DNA from: Trichormus sp. M33_DOE_039 | Lineage (GTDB): Bacteria > Cyanobacteriota > Cyanobacteriia > Cyanobacteriales > Nostocaceae | DNA length: 34,050 nucleotides | NCBI GenBank assembly: GCA_015296085.1 | Contig: DVDT01000029.1 | Location: 1-34,050, forward strand | Reading direction: 5' to 3' | In this document: piece by piece, positions 18,939-32,053 of the stretch | Numbering within the stretch: position 1 is the first letter of the stretch | Layout of the letters: each line of letters opens with the position of its first letter | Notes under the pieces: generated by a model | Databases searched by the model: none | Seen by the model: only the letters and a program-made list of their open reading frames with translations | What the model was told of the DNA's origin: nothing | Made by a program: the position numbers and the translations under genes

Positions 18939-19006
18939 CTCCAATAAACTAATTTTTATTTTTAATCATCTCTGCGTCTTTGCGCTTTTGTGCAAAACAA
19001 AAAAAT

Positions 19007-21199
19007 ATGACCGAATTTACCAAAACTCTATGTCCTTACTGTGGTGTCGGCTGCGGCTTAGAAGTCTCCCCACCAGCACAACCAAATAAAGCTACTAATC
19101 GTGATAGCCAAGGGAATCCGATTTGGCGAGTACGTGGCGATAAAGCCCATCCATCTAGTCAGGGGATGGTTTGCGTTAAAGGTGCAACGATCGCCGAATC
19201 TTTAGATAAAAATAGACTACATTACCCAATGGTGCGCGACTCTTTAGATCAAGAGTTCCGCCGCGTCAGTTGGGATGAAGCTTTTGATATCATCACCCAA
19301 CGCATTCAAACTGTGCGCTTCACTCAAGGGCCAGAAGCTATCTGTATGTACGGTTCTGGCCAGTTCCAGACGGAGGACTACTATACCGCCCAAAAATTAA
19401 TGAAAGGTTGTTTGGGAACTAATAATTTTGATGCTAACTCCCGGTTATGTATGTCCAGTGCAGTGTCTGGGTACATTCAAAGTTTTGGCTCAGATGGGCC
19501 TCCCTGCTGTTATGAAGACTTGGAGTTAACTGACTGTGCATTTTTAATTGGAACAAATACCGCCGAATGTCATCCCATCGTTTTCAATCGGCTGGAGAAG
19601 TACCACAGAAAAAACCGTAAGGTGAAAATGATTGTGGTTGACCCCCGACACACACCCACAGCCGAAGCAGCCGACTTACATTTGGCAATTCGTCCTGGTA
19701 CAGATATCGACTTGTTAAATGGGATTGCCCATTTATTGATGCGTTGGCAGATGATAGATGTTAGCTTCATCGAAGACTGCACCAGCAACTTTTCCGCCTA
19801 TGCAGAAGTGATTCGTCACTATGCGCCGGAGGTAGTAGCCCGCCAATGTGGAATTAGTGTTGCTGATTTAGAAACCGCCGCCCGTTATTGGGGTCAATCG
19901 CAGCGTGTGTTGTCGTTGTGGTCGATGGGGATAAACCAATCAAGTGAAGGGACAGCAAAAGTTAGAACTATTATCAATCTCCACTTGATGACTGCACAAA
20001 TTGGTAAACCAGGGGCGGGGCCTTTTTCCCTGACTGGTCAACCCAATGCTATGGGAGGAAGAGAAGCTGGCGGTTTAGCCCATTTATTACCCGGTTATCG
20101 CTTGGTCAAAAATCCCCAACATCGGGCTGAGGTAGAAGAATTTTGGGGATTACAGCCTGGACAGATTTCACCTCATCCTGGTTTGACAGCCTGGGATATG
20201 ATTACAGGTTTAGAAGATGGGACTGTGGGGTTGTTGTGGATTGCAGCTACTAACCCAGCTGTAAGTATGCCAGATTTAGAACGGACAAAGAAAGCCTTAT
20301 TGCGATCGCCTTTCACAATTTACCAAGACGCATATTACCCCACAGAAACCTCAGCTTTTGCCCATGTCCTTTTACCGGCGGCGCAGTGGAGTGAGAAAAC
20401 TGGCGTAATGACCAATTCCGAACGCCGAGTCACTTTGTGTCAAGCATTCCGCCAACCACCACGGGAAGCTAAAGCTGATTGGGAAATATTTGCGGAAGTA
20501 GGGCGGCGTTTAGGCTTTGGGGATAAGTTCGCCTTTAATAATTCTGCGGAAGTTTACGCCGAATTTGTCCAACTTACCAAGAGTCGTACCTGCGATATGA
20601 CAGGTATTAGTCATGAACAGTTGCAGGTAGAAGGGGCGACGCAATGGCCTCATCCTCAAGAGAAGAGTGGGGAGAAAACCAAACCTGCTAAAAGACTTTA
20701 TACTGACTTACATTTTCCTACTCCTGATGGGCGAGCTAAATTTGGGGCTTATTATTCTAAAGGTTTGGCAGAACCTCCCGACCCGGATTATCCTTTTGTA
20801 TTAACGACTGGGCGACTGTACGGACATTGGCACACTCAAACCCGCACCGGACGGATTGAAAAAATTCGCTCTATGCACCCAGAACCATTTATAGAAATTC
20901 ATCCCCGTGATGCAGCGCAGTTGGAAATTATTGACAATCAAATAGTAGAAGTGCGATCGCGTCGGGGTCAAGCTCAGTTTAAAGCCAAAGTCACCAAGGC
21001 GATCGCGCCTGGTGCAGTTTTTGTCCCTATGCACTGGGGTTCACTCTGGGCTGACAACGCCGAAGCCAACGCCCTCACCCATCCCGAATCCTGTCCAGAT
21101 TCACTCCAACCAGAATTAAAAGCCTGTGCTGTACAACTAATACCTATCTCTTTAAAAACCACAGCTAAAACTGCTCAACTCCAGTCCACACAATGGTAA
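19007..21199 (+). CDS. narB: Ferredoxin-nitrate reductase
   Basis: 730 residues from ATG at 19007 ([20 protein letters not shown]); the frame is open 9 codons upstream through repeat sequence. Cytoplasmic molybdenum enzyme that reduces nitrate to nitrite with electrons from ferredoxin. N-terminal [4Fe-4S] cysteines are C9, C12, C16 and C56 (GMVCVKG). The Mo-coordinating Cys is C148 (SRLCMSSA), and bis-MGD binding regions follow. The molydopterin dinucleotide C-terminal domain starts near residue 590 ([15 protein letters not shown]). It lacks FAD/NADH domains, as expected for the cyanobacterial type. Confidence 0.97.
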
Positions 21200-21858: not shown

Positions 21859-21963
21859 AAATAATGTTCTGCGCTAGCTTCTGTGTTCCTTGTCCTTGAA
21901 AAATAAAATATTTACAGACTTGTTTTTATAAATAGAATCCTAATAATTTTGATAATGCAAAAT

Positions 21964-22431
21964 ATGACAAACTTCTTTGAATTTGAAGCTGATTTTGTTG
22001 ATTCTCTACGTTGTATACCTATGCAGGTACGCTATAACCTCGATACCTGCGGTATTAAACTAAAGTTATCCGATTGGAATCACATGACTCAAGCTGAACG
22101 CGAAGCTTTAGTTGCCTTACCTTGCACCACAGAAACCGAAATTCAAGCTTATCAAGAATATCTCCAGCAGTTGATTTTAGCGCGCACGAATACACCAGTA
22201 TCCACATTACCAATCGAACCTTATCCCGCGTGGTTAGATGGTAACAATCTGCCAACTAATCTTCAAGAGAAAGCCCAAGAAATAGGTATTACTATTACCC
22301 TGTCACAGTGGGCAAATTTAACTCCATTACAACGCTTTGCTTTAATTAAACTGAGTCGTCCTGGACATGAAAACAAAAATTTTTCCCGGGCGATCGCAGA
22401 ATTTAATTTAGTCAATAGTGAGGATATATAA
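21964..22431 (+). CDS. narM: Nitrate reductase maturation protein NarM
   Basis: 155 residues from ATG at 21964; an ATG three codons upstream (21955) is equally possible and no clear Shine-Dalgarno decides. The sequence (MTNFFEFEADFVDSLRCIPM ... KLKLSDWNHMTQAEREALVALPC) is the nitrate-reductase-associated family (PF09655). It has two similar halves, each with a '(I/L)xLxxWxxxTxxxRxAL' motif (around residues 34-50 and 113-131), suggesting an internal duplication. In Anabaena NarM is needed for active NarB and interacts with it. It follows narB and psiE on the same strand. Confidence 0.9.
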   Translation: MTNFFEFEADFVDSLRCIPMQVRYNLDTCGIKLKLSDWNHMTQAEREALVALPCTTETEIQAYQEYLQQLILARTNTPVSTLPIEPYPAWLDGNNLPTNLQEKAQEIGITITLSQWANLTPLQRFALIKLSRPGHENKNFSRAIAEFNLVNSEDI

Positions 22432-22558: not shown

Positions 22559-23158
22559 ATGGCTGCGAAGAAAATTTTGATGCTGGTGGGTGACTATGTA
22601 GAAGACTACGAAGTCATGATTCCCTTCCAGGCTTTGCAAATGGTAGGACATACCGTTCACGCAGTTTGTCCAGACAAGCCAGCTGGCGATAAAGTACGAA
22701 CGGCAGTACATGATTTTGAGGGAGATCAAACTTACAGCGAAAAACCTGGACACAACTTTACCCTCAATGCCACCTTTGCGGATATCAAAGCCGAAGACTA
22801 CGATGCTTTAGTTATCCCTGGTGGACGCGCACCAGAATATATTCGTTTAAACCAAAGAGTCTTAGAAATCACCCGCCACTTTGCCCAAAGTAATAAACCA
22901 ATCGCTGCTATTTGTCACGGCTTACAATTATTAGCTGCAGCTGATGTTCTGCGCGGTAAAAACTGCACAGCCTACCCAGCCTGTGGCCCCGATGTGCAGA
23001 GTGCTGGCGGTAACTATGTACAAATTCCCGTAGACGAAGCCATAGTTGATGGTAACTTAGTCACTGCACCAGCGTGGCCTGCTCATCCCCGTTGGCTAGC
23101 AGAGTTTCTTAAAGTTTTGGGTACTAAAATTGAGCATCCAGAAGTAGCAAAAGTCTAA
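22559..23158 (+). CDS. DJ-1/PfpI family glutamine amidotransferase-like protein
   Basis: 199 residues. Flavodoxin-like fold with the nucleophile elbow AAICHG (Cys119, His120) and a conserved acidic residue early in the chain (GDYVEDYE, Glu15). [12 protein letters not shown] (86-96) is the typical oxyanion-side motif. Length and motif spacing fit the PfpI/YhbO class, linked to peptidase, chaperone or glyoxal-detoxifying (deglycase) activity; the exact reaction is not settled for this protein. It has its own 127-bp upstream region and a GTTGGGT/ACCCAAC hairpin (23197-23226) downstream. Confidence 0.92.
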
Positions 23159-23820: not shown

Positions 23821-25161
23821 ATGACAGGCAAAAACGCAAGACATCATGCTTTTCTGCGGCTAGTGTCTGGTAATGGTGAAGCATTTGGGACAGAATCTCG
23901 CTACTCCCTTACCAGTAAAGAAGCAGTAATTGGACGAGACCCCAGCTGCCAAGTTGTCTTGGATGCCATGATGTACCGGATGGTATCTCGTCGCCACGCT
24001 GTGGTACGTCCCGTTGCTTCCGCAGAAAATAGCAAATTTAGCTGGGTACTTTGTGATTTGAACAGTGCTAATGGCACTTACTTAAACGGACAACGCTTAT
24101 ATGGGTGTCAAGAACTGCACGCAGGCGATCGCATAGCCTTGGGTGCAGATGGGCCACAATTCCTATTTGAGTATGCAGTTGCACCTCAACCCACGGTAAT
24201 TACTAACCAAGTTGCACCGCTACCATCAGCTAAAAATCCTACTCAATCTAAGCCTGATGCTGTCAGCTTCACCCAACTGTTTCCGATTATTTCCACTGGT
24301 AAAGATTTAACTCGCAAGGCTTATCTGATACCGGGAATTCTCACGGTGATATTTGTGGTGTTGATGTTTGCTACCGTAGGTCAACCACAAGCTAATCAGG
24401 TAATTGTTGCCACTTACATAGCACTGGCTGCTTACTATTTTGTTTACCAGCTATGTGGTAAACCCAAACCTTGGTGGATGCTTGTAGGTGCAGCTTTGTC
24501 TACAGTCATCATCCTGCTCAGTCCCGTATTAAATTTATTTATTTTCATCTTTCGCGACCTGCTTCCTGGTAACGTACCCCCGATTGATCAGCCCATTAAT
24601 AGCTTGACGGAATTATTTGTGCGGTACTTTTTTGGTGCTGGGTTAATGGAGGAATTACTGAAAGCTTTGCCGATCTTAGGTGCATATCTTACAGCCTTAG
24701 CACTCCCTGCTCCTTGGCGTGAAAAGATCGGAGTTTGGGAACCTTTGGATGGTATTCTTTTGGGAACTGCTTCTGCTGTCGGCTTTACTTTGGTGGAAAC
24801 TTTAGGTCAATATGTCCCAGCAGCGTCTGTCCAAGCAGGTTCGGAGGTTGGTTTACAAGTGCTGATTGCCAGAATTCTTGGTTTACCAGCTGGACACATG
24901 GCTTACAGTGGTTATTTGGGATATTTTATCGGGTTAGCGGCACTCAAGCCCCGCCATGCTAAACAAATTCTAGCTGTTGGTTATCTAAGCGCGGCTGCAC
25001 TTCATGCTTTGTGGAATACCGCCGGACACAGTAATAATTTGCTCTTAGTTGTTGTGGGTGTCTTGTCTTATGCTTTCTTAATGGCGGCTATTCTTAAAGC
25101 AAGAGCATTATCACCAACGCGATCGCAAAATTTTGCGACTCGTTTTCTAGGCCCTAAATAG
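23821..25161 (+). CDS. FHA domain fused to PrsW-type intramembrane protease
   Basis: 446 residues. An N-terminal FHA phosphothreonine-binding domain (about 10-120) has GRD (38-40), SRRH (56-59), NSANGT (81-86) and LNG (88-90). After a linker (125-165), about eight membrane helices follow. The membrane part carries EELLK (Glu277, Glu278, Lys281), the EExxK motif of PrsW, plus His359 (AGHMAYSGYLGYFIG) and His395 (HALWNTAG), as in PrsW/CPBP-type glutamic intramembrane peptidases. In Bacillus PrsW starts cleavage of the anti-sigma factor RsiW. The FHA domain would tether or gate the protease by a phosphorylated partner (inference). It faces the CHAT/PP2C operon tail to tail, 486 bp away. Confidence 0.88.
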   Translation: MTGKNARHHAFLRLVSGNGEAFGTESRYSLTSKEAVIGRDPSCQVVLDAMMYRMVSRRHAVVRPVASAENSKFSWVLCDLNSANGTYLNGQRLYGCQELHAGDRIALGADGPQFLFEYAVAPQPTVITNQVAPLPSAKNPTQSKPDAVSFTQLFPIISTGKDLTRKAYLIPGILTVIFVVLMFATVGQPQANQVIVATYIALAAYYFVYQLCGKPKPWWMLVGAALSTVIILLSPVLNLFIFIFRDLLPGNVPPIDQPINSLTELFVRYFFGAGLMEELLKALPILGAYLTALALPAPWREKIGVWEPLDGILLGTASAVGFTLVETLGQYVPAASVQAGSEVGLQVLIARILGLPAGHMAYSGYLGYFIGLAALKPRHAKQILAVGYLSAAALHALWNTAGHSNNLLLVVVGVLSYAFLMAAILKARALSPTRSQNFATRFLGPK

Positions 25162-25647
25162 AGCTAGAGTTTAGAAGCTGCGACCTAGAGTTAGTATTAG
25201 GGACTCATACCAATTTTGGATTTGAGATTTGGAATTACAAAGCTTAATTCATGGTCTATTCCAGAAGGTGGTAACAAGGCTATCATTTACCATAGTCTGT
25301 TTTCTGTCTCAGGATAGATGTAAGAATTTGACAATTTATTTATTGTTAGCCTACTGCGGCATATTTTTACGCAGAACCATTGATAAGTAATTAAAAGCTC
25401 CAACGAGTGCTGCTACAGATTAGTAAAGTATCCAATCAAAACTTAAAACTCGCCTTCTCTCTTCACTGTCATCTGTAACTTGAGACCTATAGCTTTTATT
25501 AGCCAGCCAAATTCTACCAATCTGGAGATTGAGATTGGAGACATAGGTGAAAATTGTTGATTCATTGTCTGTGAGTGCAGAACTCAGACTAATGCTGTTG
25601 ACTTGGAATGCTAGTAAAAAATTGACAAGAGACAATCAAGATATCAA
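25162..25647. other. Convergent intergenic region
   Basis: 486 bases between two genes facing each other. No strong terminator hairpin was found on either strand. A minus-strand 71-codon frame with a TTG start (25420-25635), just after the 213-residue gene, has protein-like composition but no recognisable motif and no ribosome site. Confidence 0.4.
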
Positions 25648-26289
25648 TCAAACTTCTACGTCCGATGCGTTGAGTTGGGTGAGGGCGTAATATGCGATCG
25701 CCATACCCATTTTTGCCTGTTCTATTTCTGATAACGTTGTCCAGTCTTCCACAGGTTTGATCGCAGCACTAATGTTTTGTGATTCGTGACTACGCATTGC
25801 ATAAGCATAGGGACGGGCTAAAATTAACAGGTCATCTGCTTCCCAGGTAGGTAATACAGCCTGGACACACTCTACTAATTGCTCTCCTAACGTTTGTTGA
25901 GAAGCAACTATTTCTGTAGCTTTGGTGGCGATCGCATTTAACCAGTTTTGTGGGATGCCACCTGCAAAGACTTTCTGTAAACTTTCTTGAAGGCTGTTAA
26001 CAGCGGACGCAATTGTATTACACTTGTAATATGATGAATTTTCCACCTGCAACCACAGGTTATCTAATTGCTGATAAAAATTTTGCGATCGGCTAGTGAG
26101 TTCTTCCTCTAGCACATCTTGCATTGCGAACTGTTGTTCTAATTCATAAAAATATGTGTCTGATTCGTTATCTGTGGGATTCCACGGATAGGTAGCATCT
26201 TCTGGTTCTAATAAAGCGGCTAGTAATTCTAATTCCACTGGAGATGCTACAGAATGGTGATTATCTGAACCTTTAATTTGATGAGTCAT
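25648..26289 (-). CDS. Unrecognised acidic helical protein in the CHAT/PP2C operon
   Basis: 213 residues from ATG at 26289 (MTHQIKGSDNHHSVASPVEL); an upstream start adding six residues (MLRRQS) is possible but less likely. I do not recognise the family. The protein is soluble, strongly acidic in the first 75 residues (LLEPEDATYPW, EEELTS) and mostly helical after that. No signal peptide, membrane segment or catalytic motif is visible. It lies 76 bp after the CHAT-FHA gene on the same strand, so it is probably its co-transcribed partner, perhaps a substrate, adaptor or inhibitor of the peptidase (inference). Confidence 0.7.
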   Translation of the reverse strand: MTHQIKGSDNHHSVASPVELELLAALLEPEDATYPWNPTDNESDTYFYELEQQFAMQDVLEEELTSRSQNFYQQLDNLWLQVENSSYYKCNTIASAVNSLQESLQKVFAGGIPQNWLNAIATKATEIVASQQTLGEQLVECVQAVLPTWEADDLLILARPYAYAMRSHESQNISAAIKPVEDWTTLSEIEQAKMGMAIAYYALTQLNASDVEV

Positions 26290-26365
26290 TGATTGTCTCC
26301 GCAACAATTAATTTAGGGATATTGACTGCTACACTTCTGCCATGCAATTTTCCGCAAAAAGAATT

Positions 26366-27970
26366 TTATTGTGCCGTTCCTAAAATTTTTGAATCTTCAA
26401 TAATAAACTCCCAAGTTTCTCCTCTGGAACTACCAAACTTTAGTTGCATTCCTGATTGTAAGGGTACTTCCTCACGAAGTATTTGTTGCCAACCATTAGC
26501 TCCCAAATACCAAGTTGTGCCATAGGTCGAAAAATCTTGTAGATAATAAGTCCGTACTTGGGTAGTACCGTTAAAAGTATTACGACAGAGAATTTCGGCG
26601 TGTCGTTTAGAAACAGAAGGTTCAGAGATGACAATATCATTGTCTTTAGTGCGGCCAATACGAGTTACACCGATTCTCAATAACCAACTGCGACCACCAG
26701 GGGAAAGCGATCGCAAACAGGCCATAGGTACGGCACTATCTAAGTTAGGGATAACAGTATCCGGTAGTTCTGTCACACCTTCATCAATACCTTTAATCAG
26801 TTCACCATCAAAATCTGGATGTAGATACAGCACTGGCAAAGTCCAAGCTGGTTGATTGTATTTATAAAGTGTTAACAGTTCTTGCCTGGCTTCGGCTACA
26901 GCTTCGTCAATGGGTTTACGTGACCTTAAAGCTTTGGCAAACACTTGGATAAAACTGTGACTTTCATGATCAGCAATTTCATCCCGCATTCCTAAAACTG
27001 CCGGTACACCATGACGAATCAAAACTTCTGCCAAGCTACTAGCAGGAATAGCTTGATGATTAATGGCTGCTGGTTGCGCTCCCCAACAAGCATTTAAGAC
27101 AGCCAATTTAACAGCACTACGGGTTAAAACTTGGGCTAATTCTATCCCATTGATGCTCATACCCGGACGCAAAAATAATAGTCCCCCATCAGGGTTTGGT
27201 AAACCATGACCTGCGTAGAAAAAGACGTTATATGCTTTAGTTTCTAATTCTTGAATTAACTCTTGGGGAGTAGGTTGCAGCAATGTTTTGACTGTGCAAG
27301 CCGCATATCTTTGACCGTAACTACCTACCTGTCCACCACTGAGCAGGGTTTGTTCTAAGATAGCTGCTTCTTTTTGCAGTTGCAGATTTTGATCATAACC
27401 AAGCACCAGCAGGACTTTCAAGGCTTGATCAGTGCGTAAAGTAGGTAGGTGTTCAACTTCGCTGGTAGTGCGGCTAAAGAGCAAATCTGGGGAGAGAGAC
27501 ATGGCTGGCTGACCTGGTTCTCGCTGCATGATTTCCCAAGGAAGAGCAATCAAATCCGGGTCACGGATTTCCAAGCGAAATTGCAGTCGTTTATTTTGAC
27601 CCATGGCCATCCCACGACTGCGCTCTAGACTACCGAGAATTGATCCCTCAAATACCCACCGCCATAGACTAATGCCTAAATATTGCATCAAACGACTGCC
27701 GTAACCTGTATTTTGCCCACTAGGGGGTGCAACGATATTTATGGGGGGCAGTTGATTGACTGAGCGATGGTTTGAGCCTGTAGAAATATTGATACCACTG
27801 TGGCCAGCAAACATTTGCTGCCATTCTTGCCAAACTTGAGTGAGTTCAGCCTGCCACACACAGTCACGCAAAACGTAGCCACTGGGATAGGGAGCTTTAA
27901 CCACCCAAATGGCGAAGCTATCATTGCCAGTATTGATGAGACGGGCGATCGCCAAGTTCAGGGATGGCAT
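26366..27970 (-). CDS. CHAT (caspase-like) peptidase with C-terminal FHA domain
   Basis: 534 residues. The CHAT domain of clan CD peptidases spans about 130-390. It has LPWEIMQR (143-150), the catalytic His in FFYAGHG (His255), and the catalytic Cys in LAVLNACWG (Cys295), followed by LAEVLIRHGVPAVLGMRDEIAD. The C-terminal FHA domain (about 430-530) has RIGR (437-440), SVSKRHAEI (452-460) and YGTTW (483-487), and so should bind a phosphothreonine peptide. Residues 1-125 are a separate N-terminal region of unclear fold. CHAT peptidases act in programmed cell death and defence systems and in substrate-specific cleavage; none of their known partners (TPR-CHAT, gasdermin, effector) is seen here. 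Middle gene of a leftward set with the PP2C upstream. Confidence 0.9.
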   Translation of the reverse strand: MPSLNLAIARLINTGNDSFAIWVVKAPYPSGYVLRDCVWQAELTQVWQEWQQMFAGHSGINISTGSNHRSVNQLPPINIVAPPSGQNTGYGSRLMQYLGISLWRWVFEGSILGSLERSRGMAMGQNKRLQFRLEIRDPDLIALPWEIMQREPGQPAMSLSPDLLFSRTTSEVEHLPTLRTDQALKVLLVLGYDQNLQLQKEAAILEQTLLSGGQVGSYGQRYAACTVKTLLQPTPQELIQELETKAYNVFFYAGHGLPNPDGGLLFLRPGMSINGIELAQVLTRSAVKLAVLNACWGAQPAAINHQAIPASSLAEVLIRHGVPAVLGMRDEIADHESHSFIQVFAKALRSRKPIDEAVAEARQELLTLYKYNQPAWTLPVLYLHPDFDGELIKGIDEGVTELPDTVIPNLDSAVPMACLRSLSPGGRSWLLRIGVTRIGRTKDNDIVISEPSVSKRHAEILCRNTFNGTTQVRTYYLQDFSTYGTTWYLGANGWQQILREEVPLQSGMQLKFGSSRGETWEFIIEDSKILGTAQ

Positions 27971-28090
27971 GGATTCGTCAAACTAATAGGTAAACACAGA
28001 TAATTTCCACCAAAATTTTCCTATAGGAAAACTTTCACCTTATAAATTTAAGTGTAGTTATTATCTGTATTATTTCAGGTTTTTACCAGT

Positions 28091-30331
28091 TTACCGATTA
28101 TTTGTTGGTGTTGCACTAGGATTAATTGGTGCGGGGGGTAGGCTATATGTCTGAGGTGTATTACAAGGAGTCTCTTGATTAGATGGCAATATCTCTATTG
28201 GCCAGCTTTTTAGTTGAGATAGTTTAATTGAGATTGTTCTTTCTCCCAATGGTTGTGACTGACTTGAATTCCCACACACATCCAAAAACACTTCATAATC
28301 CTCAGCAGCAAGTTCACTATTAGGTTTTTTATCCAAAACTTCTAAAAATGTGTAGGACGGTAAATTACCCCCAGTTGACAAAGGAATTTCATTTTTGGTT
28401 CTAATTATCCATCCTGGAGCGATGTTATTGAGCGATCGCCTCTGCTGCTGTCTAGGTGGCTGGTCAACAGTTGGTAAATTTGTGTTGGGATTGGAATCCA
28501 CTACAGGTGGAAAGCTAAATCTCCCTCGAAATGAGGAGGTCAACCAGTAAGTCAATGAAAAGACGGCGATCGCCAAGAATAACGGCACTATGATAGTTAA
28601 GGGTAAATTGCTGATTTTCGTGGGGGATTTTTTTCGCAGAACTTTTGTTGGCTGTCCTAGATTAGTTGCTGGGGATGTTACTGGTGTGGGTCGTGCCGCA
28701 GCTGCCACTTGAATGGTAGCAGTATCAGGGATTACTAACTGAATCTTAGACTCTGGCTCAGTATATTTGACTTGATAGTGTACTAACGCAATGGTGACAT
28801 TATCATGACCATTTTTAGTGTTAGCAATTTCTATTAATCTATTGGCAACGTCGGTTAAATTCTTGCCATGATTGAGAATTGGTAAAATTTCTTTTTCCCA
28901 ATATTCTTCTACACGGTCAAAATCACTCAGTCCATCGGAGGTGAGGAGAAATACTGTATCCTCGTCGCAGATAAACCTCTGGGCTGTGGGATGTAAAGAA
29001 CTGCTTGGACTCATTCCCAACGCCTGGACTAGAGAGCCTGCACCACTTTGTTGTACTGCTTCTCGATAGATAGCGTAGCCTAATCTGACTTCCCGTGAAG
29101 CTACATCATCATCTAAGGTGACTTGATAACAACCTTGGCGAGTAATCCAGTAAGCCCGACTATCACCGACATGAGTAATATACATCTCATGGCCAAGAGG
29201 GAGTGCCATCACTAAGGTTGTCCCCATGCGTTTTCTACCTTGGCGATGTTCACTATCGTTGCGCTGGCTAATTTTGTCATTGGCGATCGCTACTGCCTTT
29301 TCTAAATCAGCTAGCACCATTGCGGGGTCTACATGATCAGCAGGTAGTCTGGTGAGTTGTTGTACTTGCTGCTGAATCGTTTCGATGGCTAAATTGGAAG
29401 CAACATTTCCTCCCTCATGTCCGCCAATCCCATCACAGACAATGGCTAAGGCGTTATTGGGTGGTTTACTCAACAGTGTGCCACTAGAGGGGTAACAGGC
29501 ATCTTCATTTCTTTCTCGTCTAGGGCCAGTATCCGTTTTAGTAATGATGTGGATGCTGGGGTTTTGTGTTTGTCCTAAATCTCTCAAGCCTTGGTCTAAT
29601 ACGGCAATGAGTAATTCTGGTGAGTTGATTTCCCCAGCGATTAATAAATTGCTAATTTGTTCAACAAACTCAGCGATCGCTGGCTTGGCACTGCTCACTA
29701 ATTGCTGCCAAAATTCACCCAACTGTGCTAATTCTGGGACTGTAGCTGGGTCAAACCGCAGTTCTAGTAATTGTACTAATGAGCCTTCTACCCGCAATAA
29801 GTCTGGGTCGAGTAAGCTAGATACTACACCTTCGCTCTTTAACGGTTGCCACAGCTGGGCAATTTGCCATAACCAGTTGAGTTGACGCATGGATGTGGCA
29901 TTGTGCCAAGCATCAGTTAACCTACTACACAAACTAATTTTTTGTTCTGTACCATCAAATATCAATGGCGGGTTTTCTAACAGGAGTAGTTCACTGGGGC
30001 TATGTCCTGGGGGAAGGTGAACGATTCCATAAATTTGGGGAATATTTAAACGATAAGGGATTAGCCTGAGATAAGGTCTAATCGCTTGGGTATTGTCTAA
30101 CTCTGGTGCTTGTGGCGGTAAACCAGGGGTAGTATCTAAAACAACGGACGGATTAATAATTAAATAGCGATCGGCTAATAATTCTCCCGGAGAGCCTACA
30201 CCTGAAACGTCTCCGACCACCCACAAGTAACGTTGAGGTAAGGGTGTGGAGCATTGCTGGCAAAACTTATTAGTCAGGGGGTTAACAGCCTGACAATTTG
30301 GACAGTAGAGCGTTGCCGCATCATTTTCCAT
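28091..30331 (-). CDS. Zinc-ribbon / pseudokinase-like / PP2C phosphatase / transmembrane protein
   Basis: 746 residues. A zinc ribbon (Cys10, Cys13, Cys24, Cys27) opens the protein. Residues about 50-250 look like a degenerate Ser/Thr kinase with no catalytic HRD or DFG. The PP2C domain (about 262-520) has RNEDA (274-278), VCDGIGGHEGG (298-308), MGTTL (369-373), THVGDSRAY (386-394), LLTSDGLSD (462-470) and GHDNVT (508-513), so all metal-binding Asp are present and the phosphatase should be active on Ser/Thr-P. A Pro/Thr linker leads to one membrane helix (577-598), and about 145 residues lie beyond it, probably outside the cytoplasm, with two Cys (686, 723). First gene of the set, 120 bp ahead of the CHAT-FHA gene. 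Confidence 0.9.
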   Translation of the reverse strand: MENDAATLYCPNCQAVNPLTNKFCQQCSTPLPQRYLWVVGDVSGVGSPGELLADRYLIINPSVVLDTTPGLPPQAPELDNTQAIRPYLRLIPYRLNIPQIYGIVHLPPGHSPSELLLLENPPLIFDGTEQKISLCSRLTDAWHNATSMRQLNWLWQIAQLWQPLKSEGVVSSLLDPDLLRVEGSLVQLLELRFDPATVPELAQLGEFWQQLVSSAKPAIAEFVEQISNLLIAGEINSPELLIAVLDQGLRDLGQTQNPSIHIITKTDTGPRRERNEDACYPSSGTLLSKPPNNALAIVCDGIGGHEGGNVASNLAIETIQQQVQQLTRLPADHVDPAMVLADLEKAVAIANDKISQRNDSEHRQGRKRMGTTLVMALPLGHEMYITHVGDSRAYWITRQGCYQVTLDDDVASREVRLGYAIYREAVQQSGAGSLVQALGMSPSSSLHPTAQRFICDEDTVFLLTSDGLSDFDRVEEYWEKEILPILNHGKNLTDVANRLIEIANTKNGHDNVTIALVHYQVKYTEPESKIQLVIPDTATIQVAAAARPTPVTSPATNLGQPTKVLRKKSPTKISNLPLTIIVPLFLAIAVFSLTYWLTSSFRGRFSFPPVVDSNPNTNLPTVDQPPRQQQRRSLNNIAPGWIIRTKNEIPLSTGGNLPSYTFLEVLDKKPNSELAAEDYEVFLDVCGNSSQSQPLGERTISIKLSQLKSWPIEILPSNQETPCNTPQTYSLPPAPINPSATPTNNR

Positions 30332-31702: not shown

Positions 31703-32053
31703 CTATTCAACTGCGACTTGAGGAAGTCCCATACTATAGTTAGTGACCCGTGCAGAGAGATTGTAGCTGATTTCCCCTAATTGCAGGAGCGATCGCAAAT
31801 AATGCTCTAAATCAGAACCAATCCGACGTAAGTTGTAGTCTGTCAGGTCTGCACCACTAGAAGCTTCGACTAATTCATCAAATTTTCGATAAATCTTTTG
31901 CAAAGCGTCTTCATTCCAGTTGAACTCATTGTCCGGGTCAACATCCAATGTTAAGACTTGATTACTGGGAATCATCTCGCCTGCCCGGTCAATTTCTGCT
32001 GCAAAAATGCGTATATGCCGGGTTGTAGACTTAAGCAGCGTCGGGTTGTCCAT
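31703..32053 (-). CDS. ndhM: NAD(P)H-quinone oxidoreductase subunit M (NdhM)
   Basis: 116 residues. The sequence LKSTTRHIRIFAAEIDRAGE, VLTLDVDPDNEFNWNEDAL and LTDYNLRRIGSDLEHYLRSLL is, from memory, the strongly conserved cyanobacterial/chloroplast NdhM. It is a hydrophilic subunit that helps attach the electron-input side of thylakoid NDH-1, which takes part in cyclic electron flow, respiration and CO2 uptake. No signal or membrane segment is present, as expected. It stands alone in its neighbourhood, as ndhM usually does. Confidence 0.85.
   Translation of the reverse strand: MDNPTLLKSTTRHIRIFAAEIDRAGEMIPSNQVLTLDVDPDNEFNWNEDALQKIYRKFDELVEASSGADLTDYNLRRIGSDLEHYLRSLLQLGEISYNLSARVTNYSMGLPQVAVE

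Follow-up and report, generated by a model that had tools for sequence, protein, structure and literature searches.

What unites four genes that lie side by side between positions 23821 and 30331 of a 34,050-nucleotide stretch of DNA from Trichormus sp. M33_DOE_039 (GenBank assembly GCA_015296085.1, contig DVDT01000029.1), here called the window? Three leftward genes, coding for a PP2C phosphatase, a protease that joins a CHAT to an FHA domain (CHAT-FHA) and an acidic protein, face a rightward gene for an intramembrane protease of the FHA-PrsW type. A preliminary description had placed these four open reading frames (ORFs) and read their orientation correctly, and Pfam backs its PrsW, CHAT and PP2C domains and both FHA domains; it took the four for one phosphorylation-controlled circuit and left the acidic protein unrecognised. 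In the analysis presented here, the core of the gene set is CHAT-FHA and the acidic protein, with PP2C and PrsW as looser members. Judged by sequence, CHAT-FHA clusters with HetF, the CHAT protease that acts in cell division and in the formation of heterocysts, and profile comparison reveals the acidic protein as a remote homologue of PatU/PatU3, two kinships missed by the preliminary description. The pair suggests that filamentous cyanobacteria have a second protease switch, not described so far, which would serve cell division or cell specialisation. The features of the block are listed below.

28091-30331, minus strand: 746-residue protein with a zinc ribbon, an unnamed conserved region, a PP2C domain and a membrane segment, probably the PrpJ (all1731) orthologue (Pfam, NCBIfam, Foldseek; PrpJ identity from gene order).
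26366-27970, minus strand: CHAT-FHA, 534 residues, with a HetF-like CHAT domain at about 97-396 (His255, Cys295) and a C-terminal FHA domain at 436-513 (Pfam, CHAT tree).
25648-26289, minus strand: PatU-like acidic protein, 213 residues from an ATG start, likely the CHAT-FHA substrate (hhalign, reciprocal hmmsearch, co-occurrence); YPWNP motif at residues 34-38 and a C-terminal helical domain at about 112-209, homologous to PatU.
25789-25794, minus strand: codons of Arg166-Ser167 in the acidic protein, predicted cleavage site in AYAMR↓S (conservation, predicted model).
23821-25161, plus strand: FHA-PrsW, with an N-terminal FHA domain (36-108) and a PrsW-type intramembrane protease domain (216-424), both over the Pfam cut-offs; convergent with the acidic gene.

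The acidic protein has a predicted pI of 4.2, and an alternative TTG start would extend it to 219 residues. The genome is of the Nostocaceae type, comprises 7.0 Mb in 116 contigs, and carries a HetF and a HetZ-PatU pair of its own.

CHAT-FHA groups with HetF

The CHAT domain of CHAT-FHA scores 67.6 bits against a Pfam cut-off of 24 and retains the His/Cys dyad, placing the protein within the CHAT superfamily. His255 and Cys295 are present in 34/34 sequences and align with the His and Cys of HetF. The NCBIfam HetF model (NF045509) matches the CHAT part at E 6.7e-43 and 147.1 bits, below its cut-off of 1200; the true HetF of the same genome reaches 1360 bits, and other HetF-like proteins outside the family likewise remain under 1200. 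Searched with a profile of the CHAT-FHA CHAT domain, the own family scores 447-565 bits, with 198-230 for HetF and 47-55 for other CHAT proteins.

In a tree of 53 CHAT domains, with three near-copy or partial rows excluded, HetF and CHAT-FHA are jointly separated from 7 of the 8 remaining CHAT rows with a support of 100/100, the eighth (L241) having a very long branch and an unsure placement. HetF forms one group (93/98), and CHAT-FHA forms one group with weak support (65/73), so that either may be the older form. Beyond the CHAT domain, Pfam and NCBIfam scans reveal no tetratricopeptide repeat (TPR) match in CHAT-FHA, where the FHA domain follows instead; in HetF, according to a figure legend (PMC8406250, Fig. 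4), transmembrane and TPR parts come after CHAT.

The acidic protein is a remote homologue of PatU

No family in Pfam or NCBIfam matches the acidic protein over its cut-off. A profile built from 42 acidic proteins (A1) finds a sole further match with E <0.01 in the 7-Mb genome of the window, an ORF of 329 residues (E 0.0016), whose upstream gene is HetZ (571 bits against an NCBIfam cut-off of 550). Since it adjoins HetZ, this ORF is identified as PatU, the neighbour of hetZ in the cluster hetZ-patU5-patU3 described in PMC12288457. PatU ORFs stand beside HetZ in 50/50 cases fetched from the 61 genomes with a match. In several genomes (L209, L210, L213, L223 and others) the PatU beside HetZ is broken by stops, in the manner of patU5/patU3, and in others it is one open frame.

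Aligned by hhalign with a PatU profile (A6, from 29 of the 50 fetched ORFs), A1 gives a probability of 92.1% and an E of 6.3e-7 over 96 columns at 20% identity, and the unrelated PP2C and CHAT-FHA profiles used as controls give 0.1% and 0.4%. The relation is reciprocal in hmmsearch among 3850 ORFs (3581 distinct, the rows repeating because the loci overlap): the acidic profile yields 31 non-acidic matches with E <0.01 (29 distinct), all of them PatU, and the PatU profile has only acidic proteins as its first 86 non-PatU matches. These comparisons indicate a shared C-terminal helical domain. Outside the hhalign span, each family has an upstream Pro-Trp motif, YPWN(P) at 34-38 in the acidic family and FPWE (PPxFPWE) in PatU, and the two may be counterparts. 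The span stops at residue 209 of 213 in the acidic protein and at 229 of 329 in PatU, the last ~100 residues of PatU being absent from the acidic protein. The acidic gene is not beside hetZ and sits on a different contig from the PatU of its own genome.

The predicted structure of the acidic protein is all-helical (pLDDT 70.5, pTM 0.47) and finds no match among PDB structures under E 0.8. A sequence match to a designed binder (E 0.0096) was disregarded, and L206, an ORF of the same genome weakly matched by the acidic and PatU profiles (E 0.016 and 0.11), was judged unrelated by eye.

Protease and partner are inherited as a pair

Across 291 cyanobacterial genomes, CHAT-FHA occurs in 67 and the acidic protein in 69, with both in 66, CHAT-FHA alone in 1, the acidic protein alone in 3 and neither in 221, counts that depend on the search cut-offs. 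HetF and PatU occur in 61 genomes each, with both in 60, one alone in 1 + 1 and neither in 229. Cross pairings fit worse, with 57 or 58 genomes shared and 14 apart. The two pairs are separable, CHAT-FHA and the acidic protein being found without HetF and PatU in 8 genomes and HetF and PatU alone in 3. HetF is reported to cleave PatU3 (PMC12288457); the most economical reading is cleavage of the PatU-like protein by CHAT-FHA.

Gene order separates this pair from its neighbours. Of the best 80 among 422 candidate loci, 72 keep the full order, with PP2C, CHAT-FHA and acidic gene on one strand facing PrsW, and the other 8 lack PrsW (6) or PP2C (2) in the fetched stretch; the block is therefore more than chance. 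In 120 genomes of the order, a set overlapping partly with these loci such that the two linkage counts are not independent, profile searches find CHAT-FHA in 80 (81 match at E 1e-40, G005 being excluded because its match is HetF-like), the acidic protein in 87, PrsW-FHA in 71 and PP2C in 116. CHAT-FHA and the acidic protein are together in 78 of the 80 and 78 of the 87 genomes, respectively, and their genes lie no more than 3.5 kb apart in 49/78, on the same strand every time. The acidic gene and PrsW are both present in 63/120 genomes and adjacent in 37/63, convergent every time; PP2C and CHAT-FHA are both present in 75 and adjacent in 38/75, with PP2C rows taken from 105 of the 116 matching genomes. 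All four genes form a single chain in 17/120. The genes are linked in relatives, but the preliminary description's picture of one circuit is not supported in that form, the four not being equally tied: CHAT-FHA and the acidic protein are a tight pair, and PrsW and PP2C occur without them.

The ndhM gene flanks 19/20 linked loci, and a peptide deformylase-like gene (def) flanks 14/20. In the 120 genomes, linkage of PP2C with NdhM is seen in 61/103 having both rows, at least as often as linkage of PP2C with CHAT-FHA (38/75). As the NdhM linkage holds also in genomes without CHAT-FHA, the position of PP2C carries little information. In the window, PP2C (28091-30331) likewise neighbours ndhM (31703-32053), an old linkage. 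In 20 genomes, by contrast, CHAT-FHA and the acidic gene are still neighbours although the best PP2C row lies elsewhere (beside ndhM in 16; PrsW present with the pair in 10), and in a further 29 genomes they co-occur without having been detected side by side, some at contig ends. The pair is the core of the set, and the ndhM control weakens linkage as sole evidence for a circuit of four genes.

The acidic gene also adjoins PrsW in 10 genomes without CHAT-FHA beside it; five of these lack CHAT-FHA, and in G074 the contig ends there. In family f18 (L084-L088), all five genomes without CHAT-FHA keep PP2C, acidic gene and PrsW together, the gap falling between PP2C and the acidic gene; G045, also of f18, retains CHAT-FHA.

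Arg166 as a candidate cleavage site

The acidic gene persists without CHAT-FHA in seven genomes (G017, G067, G085, G102, G119, G024 and G080), an absence checked with the family profile, allowing the partner to be compared with and without its protease. Of 139 unique acidic proteins, a set of 138 less one truncated row plus two additions, 130 from genomes with CHAT-FHA (131 rows less a G045 duplicate) and 7 from genomes without it were counted. G051, with a CHAT-FHA-like FHA end at a contig edge, and G070, 77% complete, probably reflect assembly gaps and were not counted, both retaining the Arg, and the truncated G017 row (L062) was dropped from the Arg166 count.

The segment compared is 163-YAMR-166. 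With CHAT-FHA present, Arg166 is found in 130/130 and is followed by Ser or Gly in 122/130. Without it, Arg166 is replaced by His, Cys, Gln or Asp in 6/7, and Met165 and Tyr163 are replaced in 7/7, compared with a mean of 1.05/7 changed at the 39 further positions with a conservation of 88% or more. Because four different replacements are spread across three families, they suggest that Arg166 was lost in several independent events. G024 and G080, which are not members of f18, still have Leu104 and Trp149 but have lost 163, 165 and 166, together with Arg159; G045, within f18, has both CHAT-FHA and YAMRS. In PatU, an Arg aligns with Arg166 in 47/50 sequences and is part of Arg-Ser or Arg-Gly in 45/50. 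The predicted model places Arg166 at the end of helix 151-166, ahead of a low-confidence stretch. Cleavage after Arg would be in keeping with the caspase-like clan. We infer that CHAT-FHA cleaves the PatU-like protein after Arg166. The 213-residue protein is the likely protease target, as the preliminary description had guessed.

FHA domains, PrsW and the phosphatase

The FHA domains of the two proteins score 63.3 and 52.9 bits against a Pfam cut-off of 20.7. That of CHAT-FHA (436-513) preserves Arg440, Ser454 and His457 in 34/34 sequences, and that of the PrsW protein preserves the canonical residues in 23/23. The PrsW-protease domain (PF13367) scores 131.3 bits against a cut-off of 23.5 and has EE-x-x-K, FxxxE and two His in 23/23, making it a PrsW member; against the NCBIfam PrsW equivalog it reaches 23.6 bits, the cut-off being 225. 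PP2C_2 scores 50.6 bits against a Pfam cut-off of 24, its metal-binding Asp300, Asp466 and Asp510 are present in 22/22, and Foldseek finds a PP2C fold, all of which place the protein in the PP2C family. Both proteases, the FHA domains and the phosphatase thus look intact (34/34, 23/23 and 22/22 for the catalytic residues).

The zinc ribbon of the phosphatase lies just below the Pfam cut-off (23.3 against 25), and NCBIfam PRK14559 matches the protein at E 1.4e-79, below its own cut-off. Residues 33-258 (29558-30235, minus strand) have 24 invariant columns in 22 sequences and no Pfam match over the cut-off, and their predicted model is of low confidence (pLDDT 58.8). An impression by eye of a pseudokinase in this region was not borne out, as no kinase appears in Pfam at E up to 10 (7 segments) or among PDB sequences; the sole kinase among the 50 Foldseek rows listed for the protein is elongation factor 2 kinase, in weak rows with E of at least 1.9. 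Many genomes carry a second, more distant PP2C paralogue.

The order of the genes also connects the locus with the literature. The PP2C gene prpJ is all1731, and its mutant produces none of the major heterocyst glycolipid and fails to fix nitrogen when oxygen is present (PMC6161253); PrpJ is located in the plasma membrane, as the title of a reference states. The hypothetical gene all1729 is one of ten filamentous-only core genes, in company with HetR, PatU3 and HetZ (PMC2821919). Because PP2C, CHAT-FHA and the acidic gene follow one another in this order on one strand, all1731-all1730-all1729 is their natural reading; from gene order, the PP2C of the window is probably PrpJ and the acidic protein probably all1729.

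A proposed second switch and its alternatives

The best explanation, which we consider probable as a whole, is that CHAT-FHA and the acidic protein form a second, paralogous version of the proteolytic switch known from HetF/PatU3. As a caspase-like cysteine protease, CHAT-FHA would cut the PatU-like protein after Arg166 (AYAMR↓S/G) in a loop past the helix end, thereby removing or re-shaping a regulator that would act, like PatU3, on cell division and/or differentiation, the functions to which the HetF and PatU kinship points. The FHA domain, replacing the membrane and TPR part of HetF, would let threonine phosphorylation set where or when the protease acts. PP2C, probably PrpJ, would oppose that phosphorylation as its likely eraser, and FHA-PrsW, a looser membrane partner, may read the same mark. 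A broader formulation is tentative and somewhat doubtful: two parallel caspase-like switches would descend from one ancestral protease and one ancestral substrate, with HetF/PatU3 at the septum and CHAT-FHA/PatU-like gated by phosphothreonine, reset by PrpJ and cutting YAMR↓S/G.

Several observations weigh against a second switch. The homology between acidic protein and PatU is remote (20% identity over 96 columns), the predicted model of the acidic protein is of only moderate confidence, and the co-occurrence counts ignore kinship. One genome, G309, has CHAT-FHA and no detected acidic protein. Positions 51 (6/7), 104 and 149 (5/7 each) are also changed in the genomes lacking the protease, nearly all within f18, and part of the Arg166-block signal may be lineage drift, although G024 and G080, not of f18, lost the block with 104 and 149 unchanged. 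Arg166 is kept in G017, which lacks CHAT-FHA, and its loss falls to 6/9 if G051 and G070 are counted as lacking the protease. The aligned Arg of PatU does not track HetF: the Arg-less G003, G028 and G072 all have HetF, and the PatU of G157 keeps the Arg with no HetF detected. Where an FHA domain usually has Asn before Gly-Thr, that of CHAT-FHA carries Phe or Tyr in most of the 34 sequences, so its ligand preference may be unusual.

The circuit of the preliminary description, in which phosphorylation brings CHAT-FHA and PrsW-FHA to one phosphorylated partner common to the two and PP2C resets both, is unlikely in that form. Both FHA domains do keep the phosphate-site Arg, Ser and His, the acidic gene and PrsW are adjacent and convergent in 37/63 genomes (including the 10 without CHAT-FHA beside the acidic gene), and 17/120 genomes preserve the single chain; yet PrsW is present in 71/120 genomes, 13 of them without CHAT-FHA, PP2C is present in 116/120, and 20 genomes hold the pair away from the best PP2C row, which stands beside ndhM in 16. 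The place of PP2C may be inherited synteny, as its linkage to ndhM (61/103) extends to genomes without CHAT-FHA. Staying closer to the pair, CHAT-FHA might bind the PatU-like protein through AYAMR without cutting it, the acidic protein serving as adaptor, inhibitor or activator of a protease whose substrate is elsewhere. Any obligate contact would account for the co-occurrence and for the loss of the block with the protease, and the acidic genes persisting in seven genomes without CHAT-FHA imply a role of their own; we nonetheless judge binding alone distinctly unlikely, since HetF, to which the protease is most closely related, reportedly cuts PatU3 (PMC12288457), and since the Ser or Gly following Arg in 122/130 and the position of this Arg at the end of a helix, ahead of a stretch of low confidence, suit cleavage behind it.

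That the genes are neighbours by inherited synteny, with no joint function, is improbable. It would explain why ndhM and the peptide deformylase-like gene, which have no known tie to the others, also flank the loci (19/20 and 14/20) and why the PP2C-ndhM linkage is old, but leaves aside the 29 genomes in which CHAT-FHA and the acidic gene co-occur without adjacency, the 20 in which they are adjacent with PP2C elsewhere, and an Arg block that follows the protease. CHAT proteases are parts of some bacterial immune systems, and a cell-death or defence role was among the suggestions of the preliminary description. A cell-death or anti-phage module is nevertheless very improbable here and finds no support: the best PADLOC-DB matches (E 0.0037 and 0.0059) cover partial stretches only, the genes are nearly always single copy per genome with ndhM and def as steady neighbours, and the one transposase-like neighbour cluster, recognised by eye, occurs in 4/61 loci.

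Surroundings of the block

On the PrsW side, the block adjoins a nitrate reductase-like gene (18980-21199, plus strand) and narM (21949-22431, plus strand), and a DJ-1/PfpI gene lies near it at 22559-23158. The nitrate reductase-like gene and narM are near the block in only 4 loci of the neighbour survey besides the window. No sigma or anti-sigma factor is found among 9 neighbouring window proteins scanned with Pfam and NCBIfam, and promoter and terminator scans give no signal above the shuffled level. By CHAT-FHA identity, the closest named loci among the matches listed are those of Nostoc sp. CMAA1605 (94%) and Anabaena sp. 4-3 (90%), a comparison that may omit records very near the window.

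Comparison with known systems

HetF/PatU3, PrpJ and the filamentous-only all1729 are already known, each separately; searches of open-licence PMC full text list no paper that describes a CHAT-FHA protease together with a PatU-like partner. PrsW, known from anti-sigma factor cleavage in Bacillus, shares with the window protein the PrsW domain with its EE-x-x-K, FxxxE and His motifs; the window protein differs in its N-terminal FHA domain and in scoring far below the NCBIfam PrsW equivalog cut-off. PrpJ, the plasma-membrane PP2C of heterocyst maturation, has the same combination of PP2C domain and membrane segment, and the PCC 7120 numbering fits the gene order of the window, the probable orthology being drawn from that order.

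The nearest counterpart is HetF/PatU3 of Anabaena (hetF alr3546; hetZ-patU5-patU3). Both pairs contain a CHAT cysteine protease of one group with aligned His and Cys, a partner with a homologous C-terminal domain, and a near-perfect co-occurrence of protease and partner. In domain scans, CHAT-FHA bears an FHA domain in place of the membrane and TPR part of HetF, whereas its partner is shorter than PatU, stands away from HetZ and is without the C-terminal part. The genes of CHAT-FHA and its partner are, moreover, often adjacent (49/78), and the pair is found in 8 genomes lacking both HetF and PatU. By analogy, the pair probably works like HetF/PatU3 while belonging, by defining features, to neither family.

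In HetF/PatU3, a multicellular bacterium has a known proteolytic switch of the caspase-like kind, and a related pair is inherited equally strictly. If the proposed switch is correct, it would give a function to the filamentous-only hypothetical all1729 and a mechanism for the PrpJ phenotype, and a phosphorylation input to filament and heterocyst development would become testable via one predicted cut site. Were the two switches parallel, the second would amount to a bacterial equivalent of caspase signalling gated by kinases, tying the PrpJ phenotype to proteolysis. In conclusion, the grouping of the protease with HetF, the homology of its partner to PatU and the near-perfect co-occurrence of the two set this pair beside HetF/PatU3 as its closest known system.

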